Assembly: GCF_024706985.1 (NCBI RefSeq)
Contig: NZ_JAMCCX010000012.1
Coordinates: 1 to 64,000 of the forward strand
Source: Alicyclobacillus sp. SP_1
GTDB taxonomy: Bacteria > Bacillota > Bacilli > Alicyclobacillales > Alicyclobacillaceae
Length of the DNA stretch: 64,000 bases
Direction of reading: 5' to 3'
In this document: positions 19,569 through 30,353 of the stretch, one piece after another
Numbering within the stretch: the stretch's first letter is position 1
Layout of the letters: each line of letters opens with the position of its first letter
Made by a program: the position numbers and the translations under genes
Notes under the pieces: model-generated
Database searches by the model: none
Told to the model about the DNA's origin: nothing
The model's input: only the letters and a program-made list of their open reading frames with translations

Positions 19569-20309
19569 TTGAACGGAAAGGTTGTACTTGTTACCGGCGG
19601 TGGCCGTGGAATTGGTGCAGAAACAGCGAGAATTCTTGCCAGTCGAGGTGCGGCAGTTGTCGTTAATTATTTGTCGAACAGTGAAGCAGCCAATTCGCTA
19701 GTGGATGAACTCACGAAACGAGGCAGTCAGGCGTTGGCGATTCAGGCCGATGTTCGCGATGAAGAGCAGGTTCAACACCTTGTCAGCACTACGGTCGATA
19801 AATTTGGTCGTATTGACGCATTGGTGAGCAACGCTGCGATGAGTTTTGTCCGCAAGCCATTTTTAGAAATGAGCTGGTCAGAGTTTTCCCCGAAGCTAAA
19901 TGATGAGTTAAAAGCTGCGTTCACGTTGACTCAGGTTGTACTACCTCACATGATCCAAAACCGTTATGGGAGAATTGTTTATGTATCAACGGGCTTAGCC
20001 AACCATCCACAAGTCCCATTCATTGCGCACGGAACAGCCAAGGCAGGACTAAGCTCCTTCGGGAAGTATATTGCCAAAGAGTTTGGGGCGCATGGAATCA
20101 CAGCGAATGTGGTGTCACCCGGTCTTGTCGAGACGGAACGTACACAATTCCAGACAGAAGAATTCAAAAAAAGAATGTCAAACATGACCCCACTCGGTCG
20201 TATTGCGAAACCGGAAGACATTGCCCGCGTTATAGCGTTTTATGTGAGCGATGACAGTCAGTTTATGACAGGTTCCAACGTATCGGTTGATGGTGGATTA
20301 TCTCTGTAA
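19569..20309 (+). CDS. Short-chain dehydrogenase/reductase-like protein, Tyr replaced by His
   Basis: This 246-aa protein has the SDR fold: the NAD(P)-binding TGGGRGIG near the N terminus, the NNAG-equivalent SNAAM, the catalytic-serine strand YVSTG and the C-terminal VSVDGGLSL, much like FabG. At the active site the usual Y-x-x-x-K reads H-G-T-A-K (in AHGTAKAGL), so the general-acid tyrosine is replaced by histidine while the lysine is kept. Either the chemistry is altered or the enzyme is not a normal oxidoreductase. TTG 19569 is chosen as start since AAGGAG lies 9 bp upstream and the product begins NGKVVLVTGG. It is monocistronic and followed by a strong hairpin. Confidence 0.88.
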   Translation: MNGKVVLVTGGGRGIGAETARILASRGAAVVVNYLSNSEAANSLVDELTKRGSQALAIQADVRDEEQVQHLVSTTVDKFGRIDALVSNAAMSFVRKPFLEMSWSEFSPKLNDELKAAFTLTQVVLPHMIQNRYGRIVYVSTGLANHPQVPFIAHGTAKAGLSSFGKYIAKEFGAHGITANVVSPGLVETERTQFQTEEFKKRMSNMTPLGRIAKPEDIARVIAFYVSDDSQFMTGSNVSVDGGLSL

Positions 20310-20420
20310 CCGTGGTACAAACAACTACGGTCAGTGTCGCGGAATTTGATTCCGATGAAATAGGTTGGCGTTTTAGTTGCTGAAATGGCCTTCTCAAGCA
20401 AGCCTTGTTTATCATTACCT

Positions 20421-20457
20421 GAACCCCCGCCACGTTTTAGGCCGTTGGCGGGGGTTC
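20421..20457 (+). terminator. Strong hairpin between convergent genes
   Basis: GAACCCCCGCC (20421-20431) pairs perfectly with GGCGGGGGTTC (20447-20457), an 11-bp stem. It lies between the SDR gene (plus) and the HTH regulator gene (minus) and probably terminates transcription from both sides. Confidence 0.75.
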
Positions 20458-20465
20458 GTTCAGTA

Positions 20466-21032
20466 TCAATCATCAAAATCATATCCCCTGCTTCCGTCAT
20501 CCTCTTTAATTTTGCACAACTCTCTCACAATTGGAATAAACGCCTTTCCTTGTCCCTCGTTTAACCACGCCAGTTCCCTGACCAATTCCTTCGAAGCATC
20601 CCGCTCCACAAAACCAAATTGCTGAAAAGCAATACCTGCTTCCGCACTTTTCACTAAAAGCTTCAGCACCTTGTGTGGCACCATCGCGTCTAGGAAAGAC
20701 TCCTCCCCGTTATCCAACAGCCTTATGTACTTTGCAAGCGCAGCCCCTAGCTTGTCAGCAAGGTCGTAAACCCTTACCCGCAAGTCCTCCATCGATTCGT
20801 CATTTGACTCGGCTTCATCCGGTAGGTACCCGGCCAACACCATCATGCGGTGGACACTCGCCCCCGGAACATGCGGCGCAATTTTGCGCAGAAACTTAGG
20901 GGAGATGTTCTCCCCACCCAACACTCGATAAAAGTAGCTGGCACTCATTTGGGCTTTCTCTGCGACAAATTTGCCCGTAGTTCCGTGTTCATCGAGTAAA
21001 CCTTGAACGTACTGCTGAACGGTCATAGTCAT
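20466..21032 (-). CDS. HTH (XRE-like) regulator of the plasmid-like module
   Basis: This 188-aa protein has an N-terminal helix-turn-helix of the XRE type (KFVAEKAQMSASYFYRVLGGENISPKFLRKIA) followed by HRMMVLAGYLPDE, an arrangement common in phage and plasmid repressors. The remainder is helical and acidic, ending YDFDD, probably for oligomer formation. ATG 21032 has GGGTGG five bases upstream. Its upstream region (21050-21345) holds several copies of an AAAGTTACC-type motif, likely operators, and beyond these the first GGTCACA array. It may regulate itself and possibly the replication genes, or bind the arrays; neither is shown by the sequence alone. Confidence 0.8.
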   Translation of the reverse strand: MTMTVQQYVQGLLDEHGTTGKFVAEKAQMSASYFYRVLGGENISPKFLRKIAPHVPGASVHRMMVLAGYLPDEAESNDESMEDLRVRVYDLADKLGAALAKYIRLLDNGEESFLDAMVPHKVLKLLVKSAEAGIAFQQFGFVERDASKELVRELAWLNEGQGKAFIPIVRELCKIKEDDGSRGYDFDD

Positions 21033-21050
21033 GTTCGCCACCCTGTTGTT

Positions 21051-21342
21051 AAAGTTACCTTTTAGTTCACCAAATTCCAGAAACGATCAATTTCGAGCAA
21101 CTATATTTTACTCCTAAATTCATAGGTTTGCGACAATAAAGTTATGTATTTGTTCATCAAAATAGAAAACAAAGTATTTATACTTACTAAAAAGTAACTT
21201 TAATATGTCGTTTTTGTTTATGACAAATGTCATCAATAACATTTTACGTATCTAAAAACAAACACCAGTTGAAAACTATACATTACCTTTAAGTAACCAA
21301 CAATTAGATACATTCACAATCAGATGAACAAAAAGGTAATCA
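21051..21342. promoter_or_regulatory. AAAGTTACC-type operator candidates upstream of the HTH gene
   Basis: Related motifs occur at 21051-21065 (AAAGTTACCTTTTAG), 21186-21202 inverted (CTAAAAAGTAACTTTAA), 21282-21298 (ATTACCTTTAAGTAACC, itself palindromic) and 21331-21341 (AAAAAGGTAAT). They lie in AT-rich DNA immediately before the HTH gene, as expected for repressor operators. A related AAAGTTG palindrome lies at 24754-24771. Confidence 0.5.
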
Positions 21343-21367
21343 TCTGTCACATTCCATCATCCCATCC

Positions 21368-21460
21368 GGTCACAAACCATGCTTGTTTTGGTCACAAGAA
21401 TCGATTCTCCGGTCACAAAAACTACCCTTTCTGGTCACAAAACAGGGTATTTCGGTCACA
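21368..21460 (+). repeat. Array A, left arm: five GGTCACA boxes
   Basis: GGTCACA begins at 21368, 21390, 21411, 21433 and 21454, that is every 21 or 22 bp, or two helical turns, so the boxes lie on the same face of the DNA. Bases outside the heptamer vary, apart from a tendency to TT before and AA after. Only this orientation occurs in this arm. It is mirrored by the arm at 21797-21928. Confidence 0.9.
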
Positions 21461-21796
21461 GAAAACTGGAAACGAATTATTGGGGCAGTAGGATGCGACG
21501 GCGTTTTTGTGGAAGAAATCATGCTTTTTCCGGGTCTTGTGACCAGCTTTTCGGTGGGGTGTGCATATACATTGCGCTTATATTGATCACGTGACCATGG
21601 AACATGGAACTGGACACTCATTAGGAAAGGACAGACCAAAGTAAGAACAAAATCTCGCGCGTGTATGCACACAGTATTGCAGCAGGGTGTCACAAAACCC
21701 TTATATATATAATATTATTGGTAATAAATATTATATATATAATCTACTGCGAGTAGCATTTCCCGCATTTTCGCCCCCTCACATTTTCCAAATTTC
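21461..21796. other. Array A core: shared motifs and AT-rich segment
   Basis: The core between the two arms holds one inverted box (TGTGACC, 21538), the 13-mer GTGTGCATATACA (21559-21571), TGATCACGTG (21584-21593), a GGTGTCACAAAA near 21686, and an almost pure A/T stretch (21700-21742). The same elements in the same order are found in the core of array B. An AT-rich segment flanked by regularly phased boxes is the classic plan of an iteron-type replication origin, but a partition site or regulatory region is also possible. Confidence 0.7.
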
Positions 21797-21928
21797 TGTG
21801 ACCGAAGTACCCCGTTTTGTGACCAAAACAGCCCTGTTTTGTGACCAAAACAGCCCTGTTTTGTGACCAAGAACAGCGTTTTTGTGACCAAGAACAGCGT
21901 TTTTGTGACCAAGAACAGCGTTTTTGTG
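21797..21928 (-). repeat. Array A, right arm: inverted boxes, interrupted by the IS
   Basis: TGTGACC (the inverse of GGTCACA) begins at 21797, 21818, 21840, 21862, 21883 and 21904; a seventh starts at 21925 and is cut after TGTG by the insertion sequence. It resumes beyond the IS with TGTGACC at 24029 and TGTGACA at 24050. Counting through the duplication, the 21-22 bp period is kept, giving eight boxes in the arm before the insertion. Consecutive units carry nearly identical spacers (ACCAAGAACAGCG), suggesting recent duplication. Confidence 0.9.
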
Positions 21929-21994
21929 CTCATCTTTGACAGCCCCCTAGGCCCAGCAAGGGATTGTAGGGGGTATTTTGCCCTACAACCCAAA

Positions 21995-22017
21995 GAGCCC
22001 CAATCTAGTTGGGGCCT
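21995..22017 (-). terminator. Transposase gene terminator
   Basis: GCCCCAA and TTGGGGC form a stem (about 21995-22013) just beyond the transposase stop, inside the IS end. A further small stem GTAGGG/CCCTAC lies at 21966-21986. Confidence 0.55.
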
Positions 22018-22034
22018 TCAAGTCTGAATTCGGA

Positions 22035-23834
22035 CTAAACGAGGGTGCCGGATGAGGTCTGACGTAGGTGGATGGCCTTCGCAGGAAGCGGAACGTTCAG
22101 TGCCTTGAGCACCTGAACCAGGTTTTGTGGCGGAGGTGGTACGCTAAGGAACTCTTTCCCGAGAAACTCAGCCTTCATGACGTGCCAGCGGGCCAGCTCC
22201 TTTACAATTCCCTCGCCGGTGTACCATCGATCATTAAGTTCTTTCAATCGTTGCTCACGCTCCGCAGCGTTGTCTATCTGCTTCGCTTCGTGTTCACGCT
22301 GTTCCCACCAGCGGCGGTACATCACTTGAATCTCCTGCTCGAACAGATACGCAAGTACACAGACGAATATGTGGCCACGAACGCGCTTCTCATTCCAGTG
22401 GTAGACCGGACCTACGTCCAGGAAGTTCTTAATCTCTCTGAACGCCCGTTCCACGTTCATCAATGTTTTGTATGAAGTGACCACCTGCTCAGCAGGTAAA
22501 TTGGTGTTGGTCTTAATGACAAACTTTCCGTCTCGGAGCGATTCCTTGGCAAGCGCCTCTTCCTTGCGTTTGTACGAGAGCTTCTCGTCAGTGAACTGCA
22601 CTTCAAGAAACGCTTGTACACCTTTTTTCGTGAGGATGTCACCGACCTTGAGCATCACAGACTGTGTGCTTGTCTTGCGATCGCGGTGGGGGTTCTCCAG
22701 CCACGCCTGGTATTCTGACAATGCAATCTCAGCTTCCTCTAACGCGGACACACGGAAGGCTTCGTCTGTCTTTGCTTTGATCGGATTGTGGCAGAGAATG
22801 TAGCGGGCATCTTGCCCTTTCTCATCATCCTCGACTGCAGATGCAGGCACCTCGAGGTAGCTAAGGTTACCGCGTAGCTCAGTGTAGGCTGAGATGTCGT
22901 TGTACTTTGCCAATAACGCGTCACTGACTACACGACCTCGTTTGTGGTAGCCCACAATGTAGGGATACTTGAGCTCTGCCAACAACTCGGTGTTCTTTTT
23001 GGTGACCATGCCACGGTCCCCGACGAAGACACACTGTTCAACGGAGAACTCATTCTTCAAACGTTCCAGAATCTCTTTGACGGTCTTCTTGTCCGGTGTG
23101 TTCCCTGCAAAGACTTCATGGGTGATTGGCAGGCCATCTTGTGTTACGAGCAGGCCCAGTTCAACCTGTTCCAGGTCTGGCCGGTGGGTTCGGGAATACC
23201 CATGTTCACCAATCGGGCAGTGGTGACCACTGAGGTGCGTACTGGTAAGGTCATAGAGTACCAACGACAAACGAAAGCTCAAGAGGTCGGTGAGTCGTCG
23301 GTAGATGAGCTTCTCCAGCTGTGGCTTCATGTCCATGAGGTGATCCAAGGCTCGGTAGAAATGTTGGAGCTGCCAGGGTTCATCGCCGGACTCAGGGAGA
23401 TACATGTCCTCAATGGTGTGGAACAGGTCCAGCTTGCTTGACGGGTTCATCAAGCGATTACAGACCATTGCTTTCACGTACCGGGCCACATCAAATGTGA
23501 CTTGTCGGTCTTTCAGTCCGTCCTGTATAGCCTTAGTGAGTCCGAGTTGGTCCCACAAAAATTGAACCACGTAGGGAACGCCGAAGGAGAGGGTAGACTT
23601 AGGGTCGAAATCCTCAATCGAACCAGAGGTACGGTTTTGTAGGAGGGATTCTAAGGTGCGAATGAACTGTTGAATCTCTTCCTCCGAGTAGCCATCAACG
23701 TTACCAAGACTAGCAATCCGACGCTTTTTGACAGTCTTTCCCTCGCGATAGGATTCAACAATATGCATGTACCTGTAGGTGCGACCATCGGGGCGTTTTG
23801 TGGATACAATTTGTGCGAACACAGGGCTCACCAC
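22035..23834 (-). CDS. IS1634-family transposase
   Basis: This 599-aa DDE transposase fills the insertion sequence. The N terminus has the family pattern FAQIVSTKRPDGRTYRYMHIVESYREGK. The catalytic triad is visible as Asp195 in LVLYDLTST, Asp273 in FVGDRGM and a Glu near residue 470 in NVERAFREIKNFL; the region VRGHIFVCVLAYLFE follows, as in the IS4-related superfamily. The start is one of two consecutive GTG codons at 23834 with only a weak ribosome site, and no frameshift is needed. The complete frame and intact element ends suggest that it can still transpose. Confidence 0.94.
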   Translation of the reverse strand: MVSPVFAQIVSTKRPDGRTYRYMHIVESYREGKTVKKRRIASLGNVDGYSEEEIQQFIRTLESLLQNRTSGSIEDFDPKSTLSFGVPYVVQFLWDQLGLTKAIQDGLKDRQVTFDVARYVKAMVCNRLMNPSSKLDLFHTIEDMYLPESGDEPWQLQHFYRALDHLMDMKPQLEKLIYRRLTDLLSFRLSLVLYDLTSTHLSGHHCPIGEHGYSRTHRPDLEQVELGLLVTQDGLPITHEVFAGNTPDKKTVKEILERLKNEFSVEQCVFVGDRGMVTKKNTELLAELKYPYIVGYHKRGRVVSDALLAKYNDISAYTELRGNLSYLEVPASAVEDDEKGQDARYILCHNPIKAKTDEAFRVSALEEAEIALSEYQAWLENPHRDRKTSTQSVMLKVGDILTKKGVQAFLEVQFTDEKLSYKRKEEALAKESLRDGKFVIKTNTNLPAEQVVTSYKTLMNVERAFREIKNFLDVGPVYHWNEKRVRGHIFVCVLAYLFEQEIQVMYRRWWEQREHEAKQIDNAAEREQRLKELNDRWYTGEGIVKELARWHVMKAEFLGKEFLSVPPPPQNLVQVLKALNVPLPAKAIHLRQTSSGTLV

Positions 23835-23966
23835 CGCCTACATTATTACCTACAAATATATAACCAATAGACATACAAATCAAGATAAAAGTTATCCACT
23901 GTCCAAACACTTTTTGACCTACATTTTCAGTGTCAAAACAGGACTTATCAACAGAAAAACCGCGCA

Positions 23967-23988
23967 GCAGCGCGGTTTCGAGACCTAG
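23967..23988. terminator. Hairpin upstream of the transposase gene
   Basis: AACCGCGC and GCGCGGTT form an 8-bp GC-rich stem with an AGCA loop just inside the right IS end and about 135 bp before the transposase start. Such stems can block read-through transcription or translation from outside and keep transposase levels low. Confidence 0.5.
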
Positions 23989-24028
23989 ATGACTGAGTTT
24001 TCAACAGCTAAACTGTCAAAGATGAGTT

Positions 24029-24056
24029 TGTGACCAGAAACGCAGTTTTTGTGACA
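24029..24056 (-). repeat. Array A, displaced end of the right arm
   Basis: TGTGACC at 24029 and TGTGACA at 24050 lie directly beyond the right IS end, 21 bp apart. They are the end of the right arm of array A, separated from it by the IS insertion. Confidence 0.85.
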
Positions 24057-24423
24057 AGCAGTCAAAATGACTCCAAATCCTATTCTCACTTGTTATCGGA
24101 TGTACATTCCAAGGGATTCTCATTTTCACTGACGCCGCCAAACCGTCAAACACCAAATCCAATTGCACTATTGCTAGACTCTCTAAACCGCGCCACACGT
24201 TCATTTTTGGGGTTCTAGCATGTGTTCAGGTGCCACTAAGATGTTTGTACCGAAAGGCCCTATACTGGGCTATAACACGGCTTTTCGGGCCGCTAATTTA
24301 ATTCAGCGAGAAGTCTTTACAGACGTAGAACAAGCGGGGAGCGGGTGTGACGGGACTACAACAAAAACAGCCCGATCCCTCGCAGTTGTGCGAGAAACCG
24401 GGCTGTCTTTGAGTTCTTTGCAG
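24057..24423. other. Intergenic stretch with two hairpins
   Basis: No gene is supported. A 10-bp stem with one mismatch (CCGAAAGGCC, 24250-24259; GGCTTTTCGG, 24279-24288) lies in the middle, and the terminator of the next gene at its right end. In a relaxation-type replicon a hairpin of this sort could be part of a nick or single-strand origin, but nothing in the sequence proves it. Confidence 0.4.
24369..24415 (-). terminator. Terminator of the 90-aa protein gene
   Basis: ACAGCCCG pairs with CGGGCTGT, with an inner stem CTCGCA/TGCGAG. On the minus strand the outer stem is followed by TTTTTGTTG. It lies directly after the stop codon at 24424. Confidence 0.75.
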
Positions 24424-24696
24424 TCACAGTGCGATGTAGAAAACCGAACCGTTGGCGGCATCCCAAGTCGCGCCAACCGGCCTGCCACTGAAGCAGTCGT
24501 CCGTCACTCGTTCCATTCCTTCTGCTTGGCCAAATTCCTGCGCCGAGGCGACGTAGATGTTGCCCGTGTGTCGCGTCGAAAGACGAGCGACTTCTTGTAG
24601 GCCATCATCTGTGACGACTTCAAATAAAATCGGTTTGCAGCTGTAGGAATTAGGTTCATAAACGAAATACAGCGTCGCGCTCAGTTTTCGAATCAA
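24424..24696 (-). CDS. Hypothetical 90-aa protein of the plasmid-like module
   Basis: This 90-aa protein is not recognised. It starts at TTG 24696 with GGAG eight bases upstream and ends just before a strong terminator, so it is very probably a real gene. The sequence is acidic and beta-rich by eye, with no membrane segment and three cysteines. Its ribosome binding site lies within the 3' arm of a perfect 10-bp hairpin (24700-24731), so translation may be controlled. It lies between the two GGTCACA arrays, together with the replication-relaxation gene, and was probably part of the same module before the IS inserted. Confidence 0.65.
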   Translation of the reverse strand: MIRKLSATLYFVYEPNSYSCKPILFEVVTDDGLQEVARLSTRHTGNIYVASAQEFGQAEGMERVTDDCFSGRPVGATWDAANGSVFYIAL

Positions 24697-24699
24697 GAA

Positions 24700-24731
24700 T
24701 ACGCACTCCTTTCATACTTTCGGAGTGCGTA
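24700..24731 (-). promoter_or_regulatory. Leader hairpin that hides a ribosome binding site
   Basis: TACGCACTCC (24700-24709) and GGAGTGCGTA (24722-24731) form a perfect 10-bp stem with a 12-nt loop. On the minus strand the 3' arm carries the GGAG (24706-24709) serving TTG 24696. A stem this strong would keep the site closed unless it is opened by temperature, a protein or a passing ribosome. Confidence 0.6.
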
Positions 24732-25034
24732 TGACAAGTTGCAGGAGCTTTCTAAAGTTGAAAACAACTTTAACCCTTAATCGCCCGAATAAGCCCCCAT
24801 AAAGAGTTTGACGACCAATTTATCCTGTCATACGTGGAAAATTGCTCAAAACCGAAAATGGAGCCGAATCCGGCGGTGTTACGAATTGTGCTATAGGCAT
24901 ATATTCCAAACCAACCATTTATAAGGAGTCAAATTGACCCTATACCGACGAAGACGGAACCCCTCCCCAAAGTCGTTCCATGCTTCAACGAGCGTTCTGG
25001 CAACCCTCTGGTGAGCTGGAGGTACGAAAGTGAA
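24732..25034. other. Intergenic stretch, operator-like palindrome only
   Basis: Contains the palindrome AAAGTTG-AAAA-CAACTTT (24754-24771), similar to the motifs before the HTH gene, and probably the promoter of the 90-aa protein. No gene is supported. Confidence 0.4.
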
Positions 25035-25062
25035 AAGCCGACCCGGACAGCCCGGATCGGCT
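25035..25062 (-). terminator. Terminator of the replication-relaxation operon
   Basis: GCCGATCCGG and CCGGGTCGGC form a stem with one mismatch, followed on the minus strand by TTTT. It begins at the stop codon of the 80-aa protein, so the two-gene transcript should end here. Confidence 0.75.
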
Positions 25063-25304
25063 CAGTCAAAATTAGCTCCTACGATGTTCAAAAGGATAGT
25101 TTCCATGTGTACCCAGCCATGTACCAGAACTTCGTTTTCGACGTTCGGAGTCTTGGTAAGATGATGGTCCGGGTTCGGTATCATCGCGGCAAAGTCAAAG
25201 TCTACCCTACCTATAATCTCTTGAACCGCATATGGTTCCAACGAAACTTGGTTCTCCCAAAGGGGGATCAACCAGCCAACCGCCTCCGGCGTTCTCGTTT
25301 TCAC
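25062..25304 (-). CDS. Hypothetical 80-aa protein, partner of the relaxation protein
   Basis: This 80-aa protein is not recognised. It starts at GTG 25304, 18 bp after the stop of the replication-relaxation gene, with only a weak purine-rich ribosome site, and ends exactly before a terminator hairpin. This position supports a real second gene of the operon. The sequence is acidic, with a hydrophobic but not membrane-like C-terminal part (LVHGWVHMETILLNIVGANFD). The role is unknown; a small accessory replication or copy-control protein would fit the context. Confidence 0.5.
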   Translation of the reverse strand: MKTRTPEAVGWLIPLWENQVSLEPYAVQEIIGRVDFDFAAMIPNPDHHLTKTPNVENEVLVHGWVHMETILLNIVGANFD

Positions 25305-25322
25305 GTAGTTCTTTTTTCGTTA

Positions 25323-26087
25323 TTACTCCGTTTGCCGCCTCTTGTCCCTCTCCCCTGCCATATAGCTTGTTTCCTGTCCTGCGATGTAAAATAGCATTGC
25401 TATGTTTGCTGCTTGTCTCCTCTCCTTGACGTCCTGCCATCTACTGACGAGCCAGCGTACCCGTTCGATGGTTGGTGCGACCCATATCACCCGACGCACC
25501 TGCCCTTTGGTTTTTTCGTCGATAATGGAAAGGTTCTGGACGTATAATGCAAATTTTTTTCGTAGTTGCCTGCTCGATTCCGTCGCGTTGTCGTATTCCA
25601 GCCAGAAGATGCCTCTGTTTGCAGTCTGAATCAATGCGTCAGGACGAATGTAGCTTTTGCGGATTTCTGCGTCTGTGTTCCCCGCTATCTTGCGAAAGCT
25701 AAAAAGTTCATCCGCACTCTCTCTTGTGCTGTACCATTGTACGCCCTCGCACCCATGTGCCTTGACGTACCTCAGCAAAATGTCATTCACACCGAGTTGA
25801 TGGGAAATCTGAGCTTTCATCGTCACGATTTTCCCTTCGATATTGCAAAGCTGATGAGCCGCACGAACACCGTTTTCGTCTAACATGTAGACCGTTTGTC
25901 CATGACTATCCCGGCTGGTCAAAAGCATTTGTTTCTGTCTGAGCTTTAGGAGATGACTATCTGTCTTACTCCGCCGCCAGCCTAAGAGCAACATTAAGTC
26001 CTTGCGCCTAAGTACACCGGCATCAAACAGCGTACCGATTACCTTTTCGGTGTCCGTAAACTCACCATTTGCCCAGTTCAGAATCAT
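25323..26087 (-). CDS. Replication-relaxation family protein
   Basis: This 254-aa protein resembles the replication-relaxation (Replic_Relax) family found on plasmids and integrative elements of Gram-positive bacteria. The N-terminal winged helix covers TEKVIGTLFDAGVLRRKDLMLLLGWRRSK. A central block reads LGVNDILLRYVKAHG, then SYIRPDALIQTANRGIFWLEYDNATES with the conserved RPDA and the acidic LEYD, and RKKFALY after it. Members are thought to act in plasmid replication or transfer, but their biochemistry is poorly known. ATG 26087 follows GAGAGGGTG; the frame extends to 26192 without support. Array B begins about 280 bp upstream, so the protein or its regulator may bind it. Confidence 0.78.
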   Translation of the reverse strand: MILNWANGEFTDTEKVIGTLFDAGVLRRKDLMLLLGWRRSKTDSHLLKLRQKQMLLTSRDSHGQTVYMLDENGVRAAHQLCNIEGKIVTMKAQISHQLGVNDILLRYVKAHGCEGVQWYSTRESADELFSFRKIAGNTDAEIRKSYIRPDALIQTANRGIFWLEYDNATESSRQLRKKFALYVQNLSIIDEKTKGQVRRVIWVAPTIERVRWLVSRWQDVKERRQAANIAMLFYIAGQETSYMAGERDKRRQTE

Positions 26088-26368
26088 TGTTTTCACCCTC
26101 TCTCCGTCAACTCTCCCGTTACTGAAACGAAGTTGCCATTTGGTACAAATTCGCATCGTTTTTTTGTGTCGCAAAGACGACGGTCTTCTCATAAAGTCGG
26201 CTCCTGTACGTCAGAAACTCAACTTCGGGAGATTTGTACACGGATGAACGAGTGCTCGGAAAAAATCAGGAAGGCGCATTCTTCCTGAACGGGCAACTGC
26301 GAATTCGTCGAGATGGATTTTCGATCGTCAGTCTTGTGACACCCTGAACCCTAAAAAAGCATCGTTTC

Positions 26369-26438
26369 GGTCACAGAAAGGGGGTTTTTGGTCACAGAAC
26401 GGGTAATTTCGGTCACAAACGCATGGTCTTTGGTCACA
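26369..26438 (+). repeat. Array B, left arm: four GGTCACA boxes
   Basis: GGTCACA begins at 26369, 26390, 26411 and 26432, exactly every 21 bp. A degenerate inverted box TGTGACA lies before it at 26335. Orientation and spacing match the left arm of array A. Confidence 0.9.
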
Positions 26439-26732
26439 GAGAAATGGAAATTTTGAGGCGTGAATCCTTGTGGCAGTAGAGAGGGTACTGGAAAAAATGG
26501 CCGAAAAATCGTGTTTTGTGACACCTGAAAAAAATTGTGTGCATATACAGTGCTAGATCAACAACTATATCGAGGGGGTAAAAGGACAAAAAAGCAAGAA
26601 ATTCGCACGTGATCATATACAGTGTTTAAAAATCTTGGTCACAAGCTCCTTAATATTATTAATATTTTCCATAAATATTATATATAAATCCTTTTATATC
26701 AAGGATTATTGAAATTTCCATTTCCATTTTTC
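26439..26732. other. Array B core: shared motifs and AT-rich segment
   Basis: The core contains an inverted box (TGTGACA, 26517), GTGTGCATATACA (26537-26549), CACGTGATCA (26606-26615, inverted relative to array A), GGTCACA (26637) and an A/T stretch (about 26651-26700). From the last left box to the 13-mer is 105 bp in both arrays. The two cores are clearly related although much of the sequence between the motifs has diverged. Confidence 0.7.
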
Positions 26733-26834
26733 TGTGACCAAGAATGGTGTTTTTGTGACCAAGAATCGGGTTTCTGTGACCAAGAATCGGCTCTCTGTGA
26801 CCAAAACAGGGTCAAATACAGGGCTTTTGTGACC
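26733..26834 (-). repeat. Array B, right arm: five inverted boxes
   Basis: TGTGACC begins at 26733, 26754, 26775 and 26796 with a 21-bp period, and once more at 26828 after 32 bp. Spacers are similar to those of array A (ACCAAGAAT). A lone forward box occurs at 27129. Confidence 0.9.
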
Positions 26835-26849
26835 AGAACGAGTGGCATG

Positions 26850-28020
26850 AGAGTAGCGAAAATGACGAATTGGAAATCTTGGATGTAAATGGAATGACAA
26901 AGGTGATGGTAATGAATGCGTCCATCTTGAGCACCCAACCATGGTTGCAATGTCGCCTTCCGAGTTCCGCTCGACCAATTTATCCTTTTGCATGCAGAAC
27001 CACTTCTGTGGTCAATGAAGGCTCAATCACACGCTGTAAGACCGTTGCCAAAGTGCCTCCTCCGGTTTCACGAAGTCTCCTTCCTCTGAAAATCGAGCCC
27101 AGATGAAAATGAAAGTGGGCATGCACCCGGTCACAAGCACAGAGGATTTTGGACGACGCTTATATTTCGTGTGCGGCTGCGCGTACAGATTTACTTTCTT
27201 GAATCGTTGAACCATGTCACCCACTCAAACTCTACTCTCCGTAGGGCCAAGTCGCACCTAATGTATCTCCATAGTGTCGCCTTTCTCTCACCATGGTTGC
27301 TCCATATTATCACCATATTGACACTTGGCACGTGCCCAATGACTAGGCGAACGCTCCCCGCTCCGATACCGTTGGAAGTTCCACTACAACGAGTTCGAGG
27401 TTGGGTTGTCGACCCCAATGTCGAATTGCTTACATGCTCCGACGACAGTAGGAGATCGCGGCGCATGCTGGTTCAGCACTGGCCTACTTTCCTCTGGCGA
27501 CGCCAACTTCTCGTTTCTGGTGCGAAAATGTCACCACTGATGTTATCTACCGTTTTTTAAGGTGTTGAATTCGCACCATGATAAACCCCCTTTGCGTCAA
27601 GGACCTTAATGCACTGCAGACGACATCGCATAATACTTATGACAACCGCAGCATTATTAGCGTCAAAAACGCACCTTCAAAATCATCGTCGTTAGCTCCA
27701 ACGAGGTCATGACTGGCCTTTGAGCCATCTGCCTCGCTGTAGTTTCCCATCACCATTACCTCTCAGTTCCCAAGCGCGAGTTGATAACCAATAACAGATC
27801 CTTGGCGCATACGCATTTCTTGGGTACAGTCTTTGTCCGCAATTCACGGTTTTTCCCTTCCCTACGGCGTTTTACGGTGTTTTAGGGCGCAAGATTTGAC
27901 ACAGACCCAGAGAATGGGTCACTGCATCCAAGTTGCTCGGGTGAGGTTTTTTCGAAGACAAAGTTGTAAATGCTGCAACCCGACAGAGCCTTTAGTAATA
28001 TGGCGTCCTGTGTGGTCCCG
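26850..28020. other. 1.17-kb stretch without a convincing gene
   Basis: Open frames of up to 129 codons exist on both strands, but their translations have no protein-like composition, no ribosome binding sites and no recognisable domain. A single GGTCACA box lies at 27129-27135. It may be decayed coding DNA or structural DNA of the mobile module. Confidence 0.5.
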
Positions 28021-28431
28021 TTAATTTCTTCTGCCGATTTGTCCATAGTTGATCGGCTTGCACCCGCCCTCCAACAAAACCTGACGAATGTAGGGTGCCG
28101 ACCGGCCTATGGCTTGTCCTATCTCAGCAAAGGTTTTTTGCTCCAAAAAGTGCATACGATGTATCAGTTCAAAGTCTTTCTGCCTCATTTTCCTTGCCCG
28201 TGCTGCCGGGGTGATTCTCTCTATTCCGTACCAAGATAAGAGTTTTTTAACGTCCCACCAAGGAACTTCTAGTACATCACCGATTTCTTGAAACGTCATC
28301 AACTCGTCTCGATACCTTGACACCATCTGCTGTAACAAGTGCTCATGTCTTCGAAACGTATTCGCCAAAAACTCGTCCGACCGCACCACGCCTCGATTTA
28401 AAGTCACTATGGACCGGACCACATAATTCAA
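28021..28431 (-). CDS. Tandem helix-turn-helix protein at the spoVK junction
   Basis: This protein of up to 136 aa contains two helix-turn-helix-like blocks, [25 protein letters not shown] and [21 protein letters not shown], both with the pattern of sequence-specific DNA-binding domains. I do not recognise the family. The farthest start, TTG 28431, overlaps the stop of the truncated spoVK; an internal start such as ATG 28326 is possible, so the N terminus is uncertain. Its place as the first gene inside the accessory DNA, at the junction with spoVK, would suit an excision or control factor, but that is inference from position only. Confidence 0.6.
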
Positions 28432-29024
28432 ACCTTGGTCTTGACCAAACAGTCAATCGCTTCCCGCCCGAAATCCTTGTTGCCGCCGCGGGCCAGTGAA
28501 TACGCTTCATCAATAAAGAGGACTCCACCGAGCGCACGCTCAATGTGTTCGCGAGTCTTTTGGGCTGTGTGGCCGATGTACTCACCAACGAGATCGGCAC
28601 GCTCAACTTCAACAAGGTGGCCTTTTTCGAGTAGTCCCAGGTCTCGATACATTTCGGCGAGCAGCCGCGCGACTGTGGTTTTTCCGGTTCCCGGATTGCC
28701 CGAAAAGACCATATGCAGGACCGTAGGCGCCGTCTTGAGACGCGCCATCCGCCGCTGCTCCTGAATATAGACGTGGGCAAATATTTGACGAATCGTCGCT
28801 TTGACGTCTTCCAATCCAACCAAGGTATCTAAGCGACCGAGAATTCCCATCAGCCGCTCGCGTGTCATGCGCGTGACGGTAGGCATGGGTATCAGTGAAT
28901 CTCGCCCGGACAATCGAGTCAAAGCTTCACCAACCGCAATTCGGCCATTCTCAAATTCCTCAAGAACTTGTATCTTTGTGATGGCATGTGGTTCCAAGCG
29001 AGTTCGCGACGGCAAATGGCTCAC
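28428..29024 (-). pseudogene. spoVK: spoVK, 3'-truncated AAA ATPase of sporulation
   Basis: SpoVK is a AAA ATPase of the CbxX/CfqX type needed for spore maturation; the B. subtilis protein has about 322 aa. Here 198 codons remain: a helical N terminus, [11 protein letters not shown], Walker [29 protein letters not shown] and Walker [16 protein letters not shown]. The frame follows the family up to REAIDCLVK and then ends two codons later. The second half of the ATPase domain and the whole C-terminal lid, about 125 residues, are missing, and foreign DNA begins. Either the gene is destroyed or its 3' part lies beyond a large inserted element. Position next to the tRNAs and hfq matches the Bacillus order. 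Confidence 0.85.
28435..28448. other. Palindrome at the spoVK truncation point
   Basis: TTGGTC-TT-GACCAA, two perfect 6-bp arms around a central dinucleotide, lies exactly where spoVK homology ends. A symmetric site with a 2-bp centre is the form used by serine recombinases, so it may be one attachment site of the inserted element. The matching site at the other end would be outside the window. Confidence 0.4.
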
Positions 29025-29258: not shown

Positions 29259-29352
29259 TGGCGGAGTGAGACGGATTCGAACCGTCGATACGGTTTTTGA
29301 CCGTATACTCGCTTAGCAGGCGAGCGCCTTCGACCTACTCGGCCATCACTCC
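29259..29352 (-). tRNA. tRNA-Ser (GCT)
   Basis: Class II tRNA of 94 nt with a long variable arm, acceptor GGAGTGA/TCACTCC, and encoded CCA. The anticodon GCT reads AGC and AGT. Last gene of the array. Confidence 0.95.
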
Positions 29353-29360
29353 ATAGACAG

Positions 29361-29436
29361 TGGTGGGCGTTGACGGGTTCGAACCGCCGACCCCCTGCTT
29401 GTAAGGCAGGTGCTCTCCCAGCTGAGCTAAACGCCC
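29361..29436 (-). tRNA. tRNA-Val (TAC)
   Basis: Complete cloverleaf of 76 nt, anticodon loop CTTACAA, CCA encoded. Confidence 0.95.
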
Positions 29437-29442
29437 GAAATG

Positions 29443-29518
29443 TGGAGCTCCCAACCAGATTCGAACTGGTGACCTCATCCTTACCATGGATGCGCTCTGC
29501 CGACTGAGCTATGGGAGC
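29443..29518 (-). tRNA. tRNA-Thr (GGT)
   Basis: Complete cloverleaf of 76 nt, anticodon loop ATGGTAA, CCA encoded. One of two threonine tRNAs in the array. Confidence 0.95.
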
Positions 29519-29523
29519 ATGGT

Positions 29524-29598
29524 TGGCTCCCCGAGTAGGATTCGAACCTACGACCCTCCGGTTAACAGCCGGATGCTCTACCGCTGAGCTATCGAGGA
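29524..29598 (-). tRNA. tRNA-Asn (GTT)
   Basis: 75 nt, anticodon loop CTGTTAA, CCA encoded; the acceptor stem contains one T-G pair. Confidence 0.95.
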
Positions 29599-29606
29599 AA
29601 ATCAAG

Positions 29607-29682
29607 TGGTGGAGGTAGACGGATTCGAACCGACGACCCCCTGCTTGCAAGGCAGGTGCTCTCCCAGCTGAGCTATACCCCC
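29607..29682 (-). tRNA. tRNA-Ala (TGC)
   Basis: 76 nt, anticodon loop CTTGCAA, CCA encoded. Its body is very similar to the tRNA-Val of the same array. Confidence 0.95.
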
Positions 29683-29737
29683 ACGAGAATTCATGCATTA
29701 CATTTTGAGAACAGACATGGATGAGAAATCTGTTCTA

Positions 29738-29814
29738 TGGTCGGAGCAGCGGGATTCGAACCCACGACCTCCTGCTCCCAAGGCAGGCGCGCTACCAAGC
29801 TGCGCTATGCTCCG
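29738..29814 (-). tRNA. tRNA-Pro (TGG)
   Basis: 77 nt, anticodon loop CTTGGGA, CCA encoded. A small hairpin (AGAACAGA/TCTGTTCT, 29708-29736) follows it and may be a processing signal. Confidence 0.95.
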
Positions 29815-29815
29815 A

Positions 29816-29892
29816 TGGCGTGCCCGGAGAGATTCGAACTCCCGACCTCTTGATTCGTAGTCAAGCGCTCTATCCAGCTGAGCTACGGGCAC
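29816..29892 (-). tRNA. tRNA-Arg (ACG)
   Basis: 77 nt, anticodon loop CTACGAA, acceptor GTGCCCG/CGGGCAC, CCA encoded. A34 is expected to be deaminated to inosine. Confidence 0.95.
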
Positions 29893-29897
29893 AAGAC

Positions 29898-29972
29898 TGG
29901 CTGGGGGAGAAGGGATCGAACCTTCGCATAACGGAGTCAAAGTCCGTTGCCTTACCGCTTGGCTATCCCCCA
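29898..29972 (-). tRNA. tRNA-Gln (TTG)
   Basis: 75 nt, anticodon loop CTTTGAC, CCA encoded, with the T1-A72 pair usual for bacterial tRNA-Gln. Confidence 0.95.
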
Positions 29973-29977
29973 TTAGT

Positions 29978-30053
29978 TGGGGTGAGCGATGGGAATCGAA
30001 CCCACGTATGCCGGATCCACAATCCGGTGCGTTAACCCCTTCGCCACGCTCAC
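29978..30053 (-). tRNA. tRNA-His (GTG)
   Basis: 76 nt, anticodon loop TTGTGGA, CCA encoded. The base before position 1 (30054) gives the encoded extra G that pairs with C73, as expected for tRNA-His. Confidence 0.95.
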
Positions 30054-30058
30054 CACAC

Positions 30059-30134
30059 TGGCAGGGGCGGCAGGATTCGAACCCACGACATGCGGTTTTG
30101 GAGACCGCCGTTCTACCAGCTGAACTACGCCCCT
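30059..30134 (-). tRNA. tRNA-Trp (CCA)
   Basis: 76 nt, anticodon loop CTCCAAA, acceptor AGGGGCG/CGCCCCT, CCA end encoded. Confidence 0.95.
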
Positions 30135-30187
30135 AGGCCTAAGAAAACCAATCTTTGACTCCGCAAAGCTCTCCAAGTACAAACCAC

Positions 30188-30272
<85 letters not shown>

Positions 30273-30277
30273 GCTAC

Positions 30278-30353
<76 letters not shown>

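Follow-up and report, generated by a model that had tools for sequence, protein, structure and literature searches.

Two mirrored arrays of the box GGTCACA in Alicyclobacillus sp. SP_1, both within the 64,000-nucleotide stretch analysed here (contig NZ_JAMCCX010000012.1, positions 1 to 64,000; the window), are copies of one DNA site common to several mobile islands of acidophilic, spore-forming bacteria. The site probably serves the keeping or moving of these islands rather than the start of their copying. Tentatively, it may be a dedicated cis-acting assembly site that acts as a centromere-like maintenance site of the excised element, a reading ranked ahead of an operator and an origin of transfer (oriT), which are rated alike, and then of a replication origin.

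The mirrored arrays described in an earlier, sequence-only reading of this DNA are real and span ~500 bp each (A, 21368-21910; B, 26369-26834; Table 1). GGTCACA occurs 34 times in the window against 8.9 expected (maximum over 100 shuffles, 21), with 12 occurrences in array A and 10 in array B. Pairs of GGTCACA with gaps of 12-17 bases occur 15 times in the 3.4-Mb genome, all 15 inside the two arrays (control pattern, 0). The core plan that the arrays were said to share holds for the 13-mer, which is exact at 21559 and 26537 and lies 105 bp from the last left box in both, and holds in part for the identities and positions of the boxes. The supposed forward box in the core of A (21687) is GTGTCACA rather than GGTCACA, the supposed inverted box in that of B (26517) is TGTGACA, and TGATCACGTG of A (21584) does not line up with CACGTGATCA of B (26606), opposite which an alignment of nine copies places GCGTGTATGCACACA of A. 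Either half of the array matches its other half in reverse, and the array is thus a nested imperfect dyad. A structured RNA was also considered, and Rfam at E 0.1 gave no match in 20000-28500.

Table 1. Features of the GGTCACA arrays and of the island that holds them (window coordinates)
Feature	Position	Strand	Details
HTH200 protein gene	20466..21041	-	XRE-like; SinR profile match E 7.7e-5; array upstream, as in G003 and G018 C1
Array A, left arm	21368..21460	+	five GGTCACA boxes at 21368, 21390, 21411, 21433, 21454; spacing 22, 21, 22, 21
Array A, core	21517..21694		inverted box 21538, 13-mer 21559-21571, TGATCACGTG 21584, GTGTCACA 21687
Array A, A/T stretch	21701..21743		G only twice in 43 bases; aligned in 9/9 copies
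Array A, right arm	21797..21910	-	six inverted boxes at 21797, 21818, 21840, 21862, 21883, 21904; spacing 21, 22, 22, 21, 21
IS transposase (DDE_Tnp_1)	22035..23834	-	between array A and p90
p90	24424..24696	-	90-aa protein; adjoins array in G003, G018 C1, G038, C48
Replication-relaxation protein	25323..26192	-	likely start 26087; PF13814, Pfam E 3.7e-13; N-terminal winged helix
Array B, left arm	26369..26438	+	four boxes at 26369, 26390, 26411, 26432; spacing 21
Array B, core	26517..26643		TGTGACA 26517, 13-mer 26537-26549, CACGTGATCA 26606, GGTCACA (forward) 26637
Array B, A/T-rich stretch	26650..26689		aligned in 9/9 copies
Array B, right arm	26733..26834	-	five inverted boxes at 26733, 26754, 26775, 26796, 26828; spacing 21, 21, 21, 32
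spoVK-like AAA ATPase gene, 5' part	28428..29024	-	Pfam AAA; split by island, remainder on contig C19
TTGACCA	28441..28447		common to both island junctions; probable att core

Relatives were sought with the box-pair pattern over 151 genomes, and then with a sequence model of the array's right half (R1). R1 finds nine copies in 5 of the 41 genomes of the family Alicyclobacillaceae: two in the window genome, one each in genomes G003, G038 and G039, and four in G018, Alicyclobacillus ferrooxydans (one on contig C1 and three on contig C48). Arrays are borne by NZ_LJCO01000056.1 of A. ferrooxydans TC-34. The simple pattern occurs in 27 of the 151 genomes, mostly as single pairs, which are treated as chance because R1 finds only 5/41 in the family. 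Three of 398 genomes sampled from the class matched under strict filters, with seven candidates per genome scored, and all three belong to the family. A conserved 18-mer had matches in 3 viral and 11 genome stretches; R1 recognized arrays in two of the latter, both on an A. ferrooxydans contig, with weak or no matches in the others. Array B had no blastn match among 50,697 phage and 72,556 plasmid records, and searches with p90 and p82 gave no relatives in viral contigs.

The array HMM aligns across about 500 bp of each of the nine copies, with core and A/T stretch alignable in all of them. Exact boxes number 3 to 6 on the right arm in every copy and 0 to 5 on the left. Right-arm spacings are 21, 22, 32, 42, 43 or 63 bp in all nine, to which the left arms add 75 (G038) and 107 (G039), so that most box spacings correspond to whole helical turns. 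The sample comprises five array-bearing genomes with several decayed elements, in which gene calls are longest-ORF picks. Elements with relaxation proteins 41-47% identical gave no array by nhmmer or phased-word scan of the pieces fetched, or by R1 on the genomes. Pairing, as proposed in the sequence-only reading, is not general: a single array is present in each of G003, G018 C1, G038 and G039, and more than one is seen solely in the window's island (two) and on contig C48 (three).

In line with that reading, the two loci are part of a mobile element that is integrated in the genome and encodes a replication-relaxation protein and an HTH protein (HTH200, with weak SinR-type profile matches and no Pfam match at 0.001). 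They do bracket the relaxation gene, with the IS transposase and 90-aa protein genes also between them. The island splits a spoVK-like AAA ATPase gene. Compared with a 324-aa protein of G001, residues 1-192 lie at 28440-29015 and residues 186-321 on contig C19, where this part adjoins a 591-aa integrase with large-serine-recombinase-type matches; the split gene and the other island junction, with the integrase (window 28428-29024 and L177:2368-4143 on contig C19 of G000), are on contigs C12 and C19, which are unjoined in the assembly. By analogy with skin and gin, known sporulation-gene intervening elements, the island may be an element of this kind. A cluster of 12 tRNA genes directly adjoins the split gene (window 29259-30353), and the end of C19 has an ORF opening with an MNT-MNT-MNT repeat (L177:8739-9851), which may be the cause of the assembly break there.

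The island in the window retains HTH200, array A, p90, the relaxation gene and array B, and tblastn found no match in the window to PrimPol, RHH, p82 or the TrbL-like gene. A related island on A. ferrooxydans C48 (blastn blocks of 70-90% identity with the window's) has three arrays. At one of these (L078:7231-7731), p90, p82, the relaxation protein and the HTH protein had no tblastn match across a 20-kb stretch; to this extent arrays do occur at loci without the genes with which the sequence-only reading had associated them.

An operon-like element holding the array is shared by G018 C1, G038 and G003, in the order PrimPol-DUF927, p245, RHH-like, relaxation protein, p492, p842, transglutaminase-like, TrbL-like, p134, p90, array; beyond the array are HTH200 and/or p82, with HU nearby. 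PrimPol is whole in G018 C1 and in pieces, which differ, in G003 and G038. The label TrbL-like is our own (the curated match CD3337/EF1877 is weak, E 0.0012), the RHH-like protein has weak NikA-like (E 0.0032) and DDP1 (E 0.0091) matches, and the predicted structure of p245 has a pLDDT of 35.5. The G039 element consists of its front part and some remnants, together with the array and p82. Elements in G009, which has PrimPol, and G024, which has a protein at that place, both encode RHH, relaxation protein, p90 and HU. They gave no match to the array (nor a diverged array by nhmmer --max), to p82 or to the TrbL-like protein, and are flanked by direct repeats at tRNA genes; in the stretches compared, end repeats of at least 14-15 bp were not found for G003, G018, G038, G039 or the window.

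A separate repeat set lies directly 3' of PrimPol in all six PrimPol elements examined, with boxes on both strands that flank the 50-bp segment of highest A+T content (68-84%): AGGGACA (11 in G018 C1, 12 in G039), TGTCAAA (9, G003), GGTTACA (8, G038), GATTACA (10, G009) and GTGTCCA (7, G024). In 300 shuffles per region the commonest 7-mer never exceeded 5. These regions (L075:3440-4400, L135:9060-9990, L077:17230-18100, L076:16480-18020, L137:5590-7150, L136:5270-6640) have, judged by sequence, the layout of the origins of phage-inducible chromosomal islands (PICIs), where iteron-like boxes flank A/T-rich DNA immediately 3' of the initiator gene, as described in part of PMC6092414. The PrimPols of G018 and G039 are 77% identical and share the same box, while the identity of the remaining ones to the G018 protein is no more than about 24-40%, measured in pieces, and each has a different box. 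GGTCACA is absent from all six regions, and the five PrimPol-side box types are absent from the nine arrays, bar one GTGTCCA in array A. Since the PrimPol-side box changes with the PrimPol allele and GGTCACA is constant across four different combinations of PrimPol/iterons and relaxation protein, the array is separate from the PrimPol origin and constitutes a second site. The word CTACTGC, common to array and PrimPol-side regions, looked suggestive at first, but words common to the two are no more numerous than in random windows.

In the tentatively preferred reading, a DNA-binding protein would occupy the helically phased boxes on both arms, whose folding onto each other would be made possible by the A/T stretch and core, perhaps helped by the HU protein of the element. 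The resulting complex would act as a centromere-like maintenance site of the excised element, like plasmid parC or the R388 stbDRs, rather than as its replication origin. This reading is ranked first because of the phasing, size and symmetry of the array, the finding that it tracks neither the origin nor the relaxase allele, and the presence of several copies per island, and by elimination. The alignment and right-arm phasing of all nine copies and the constancy of the box over four element combinations, where each PrimPol region has its own iterons, are consistent with this role. So are p82, which adjoins the array and is found in 4/41 genomes, all four array-bearing, p132, which lies beside the array in G038 and G039 (split by about 1.9 kb in the latter), and an HU gene in all seven elements examined. 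Weak similarity to ParB-like N-terminal families (PHROGs, E 0.0014 to 0.048) is seen for p132 (L076:3694-4092).

Against a centromere-like site, no box-binding protein is strongly predicted among the array-linked proteins compared, and the element proteins scanned (part of the ORFs) include no identified StbA or ParR homologue and no match to a ParA/ParM/TubZ-type motor. HTH200 and p132 are missing beside some arrays, and p82 was not found in the window genome and belongs to no protein family found. The HU genes also occur in the two elements without array, and the array's shape fits an origin equally well. p82 may go with the array by descent alone, common descent being an alternative account of the linkage with both p82 and the TrbL-like module. 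RHH was considered as the box binder and is not established as such, because its DNA-facing strand is the same in G018, G038 and G003 but not in G039, where the array is also present.

It is unlikely that the array is an operator or enhancer, a large regulatory region lying upstream of HTH200 or p82 (for array B, the relaxation gene) and bound by a regulator of the element, a helper or the host. HTH200 is XRE-like, and six of the nine copies have HTH200, p82 or the relaxation gene starting 180-320 bp past the same array end and pointing away; yet the genes behind the array differ between copies, and every box cluster found was a full array. When 32 sequences were scanned for mirrored phased 7-mers, 5 were flagged, four with these arrays and one with a PrimPol-side iteron set, giving no sign of a regulon made up of smaller sites. 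Usual operators are also smaller and less symmetric than this array.

An oriT, in which the array would be the relaxosome site of the MOBC-like replication-relaxation protein and the RHH protein, is equally improbable in our estimate. PF13814, the family of the relaxation protein, is classed as MobC relaxase in a table of PMC5357655, is counted as MOBC relaxase in three conjugation papers (PMC5357655, PMC12479173, PMC12857230), and serves as a relaxase model in PMC11104534. By hhalign the window protein matches the relaxase of pAM373, a plasmid typed as MOBC (probability 94.3, E 9.6e-8), and is, on this similarity, a relative of MOBC relaxases. Its sequence contains RPDA...EYD, a candidate for the PD-(D/E)XK-type active site. 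Structure searches matched its winged helix only (matches included pNOB8 centromere-binding AspA and many MarR-type chains), with no Foldseek match for the fold at E 0.001; nothing on function is drawn from these matches or from the absence of nuclease rows. The RPDA aspartate is missing in 4 of 16 aligned relaxation proteins (G003, G039, G009 and G024), a subgroup that may therefore bind DNA without cutting, which counts against an oriT. The preceding stretch is missing together with it in rows L077, L135, L136 and L137. In pAD1, the direct repeats to which the MOBC relaxase binds number five and lie 70-120 bp from nic (PMC12857230); array A likewise has five boxes, 105 bp from the 13-mer. 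In pAM373, nested inverted repeats lie next to five 12-bp-spaced repeats, a region we infer to be its oriT. The weak NikA-like and DDP1 matches of RHH point the same way, as does the TrbL-like gene, which the three most complete elements with array have and the two array-less elements lack.

An oriT role for the array is weakened in that the array does not follow the relaxation-protein allele: the proteins of G003 (with array) and G009 (without) are 83% identical, whereas those of G003 and G018/G038, with the same box, are 28-30% identical. Where the element is intact, 9-11 kb separate the array from the relaxation gene. A conserved non-coding block directly upstream of p245 or its counterpart, before the RHH/relaxation genes, is present in 6/6 elements (L135, L075, L077, L076, L137, L136), with no match in the window, L177 or C48 pieces, and is the better oriT candidate. 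Ahead of the relaxation gene in two conjugative-looking elements of G011 is a candidate oriT hairpin, an inverted repeat of 21 nt around a 33-nt loop (L082:15309-15383, L088:4675-4749).

Still less probable is that elements with unrelated origins and relaxation proteins keep the array because it is read by a factor not encoded beside it, from host or helper, so that different elements share maintenance, transfer or activation machinery. A replication origin read by an initiator other than PrimPol is similarly doubtful: the boxes flank A/T-rich DNA as in PICI origins, and the window bears arrays with no tblastn match to PrimPol or to the six-element block, but all four PrimPol elements with array have their own allele-specific iterons 3' of PrimPol, ten window proteins matched no other initiator family, and words shared with the PrimPol-side regions are not above random windows. 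Of the origin or centromere suggested by the sequence-only reading, the origin is not supported, GGTCACA following neither PrimPol nor relaxation-protein allele, and the centromere-type role may still hold.

The cis-sites of mobile elements usually correspond to the replication or transfer genes that the element itself carries. In the present elements the box of a symmetric site of 500 bp stays the same although origin, primase, relaxation-protein and RHH alleles change around it, and a separate, portable function therefore becomes testable. The comparison also reveals an Alicyclobacillaceae family of PrimPol elements with PICI-like origins and an island splitting a sporulation-type gene.

Among known systems, parC of R1 and pSK41 has phased repeats in two sets that probably form one large complex. 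The same features are shared with the array by the R388 stbDRs (PMC3098194); unlike stbDRs and parC, the array is mirrored, with 21-bp steps, an A/T stretch and a nested dyad core. Like the MOBC oriT of pAD1 and pAM373 (PMC12857230, in part), it combines direct repeats with nested inverted repeats in an element with a PF13814 protein; it differs in being two-sided, far from the gene in intact elements and uncoupled from the relaxase allele. The mobilizable islands SGI1 and GISul2 (PMC5704250) likewise encode a VirB6/TrbL-type protein, no full T4SS being found in the elements described here, which differ in having PrimPol and a MOBC-like protein. A literature search over titles and the openings of abstracts, with subscription journals mostly beyond its reach, found no description of a mirrored GGTCACA array. 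The claim of the sequence-only reading that such an arrangement has no described precedent nevertheless fails, because the origins of PICIs and SaPIs (PMC6092414) also have mirrored arrays on a mobile island, with two iteron sets around an A/T-rich stretch. These origins lie immediately 3' of the initiator gene, a place taken here by other iterons (6/6), whereas the array adjoins p90 or p82 and its box is constant.
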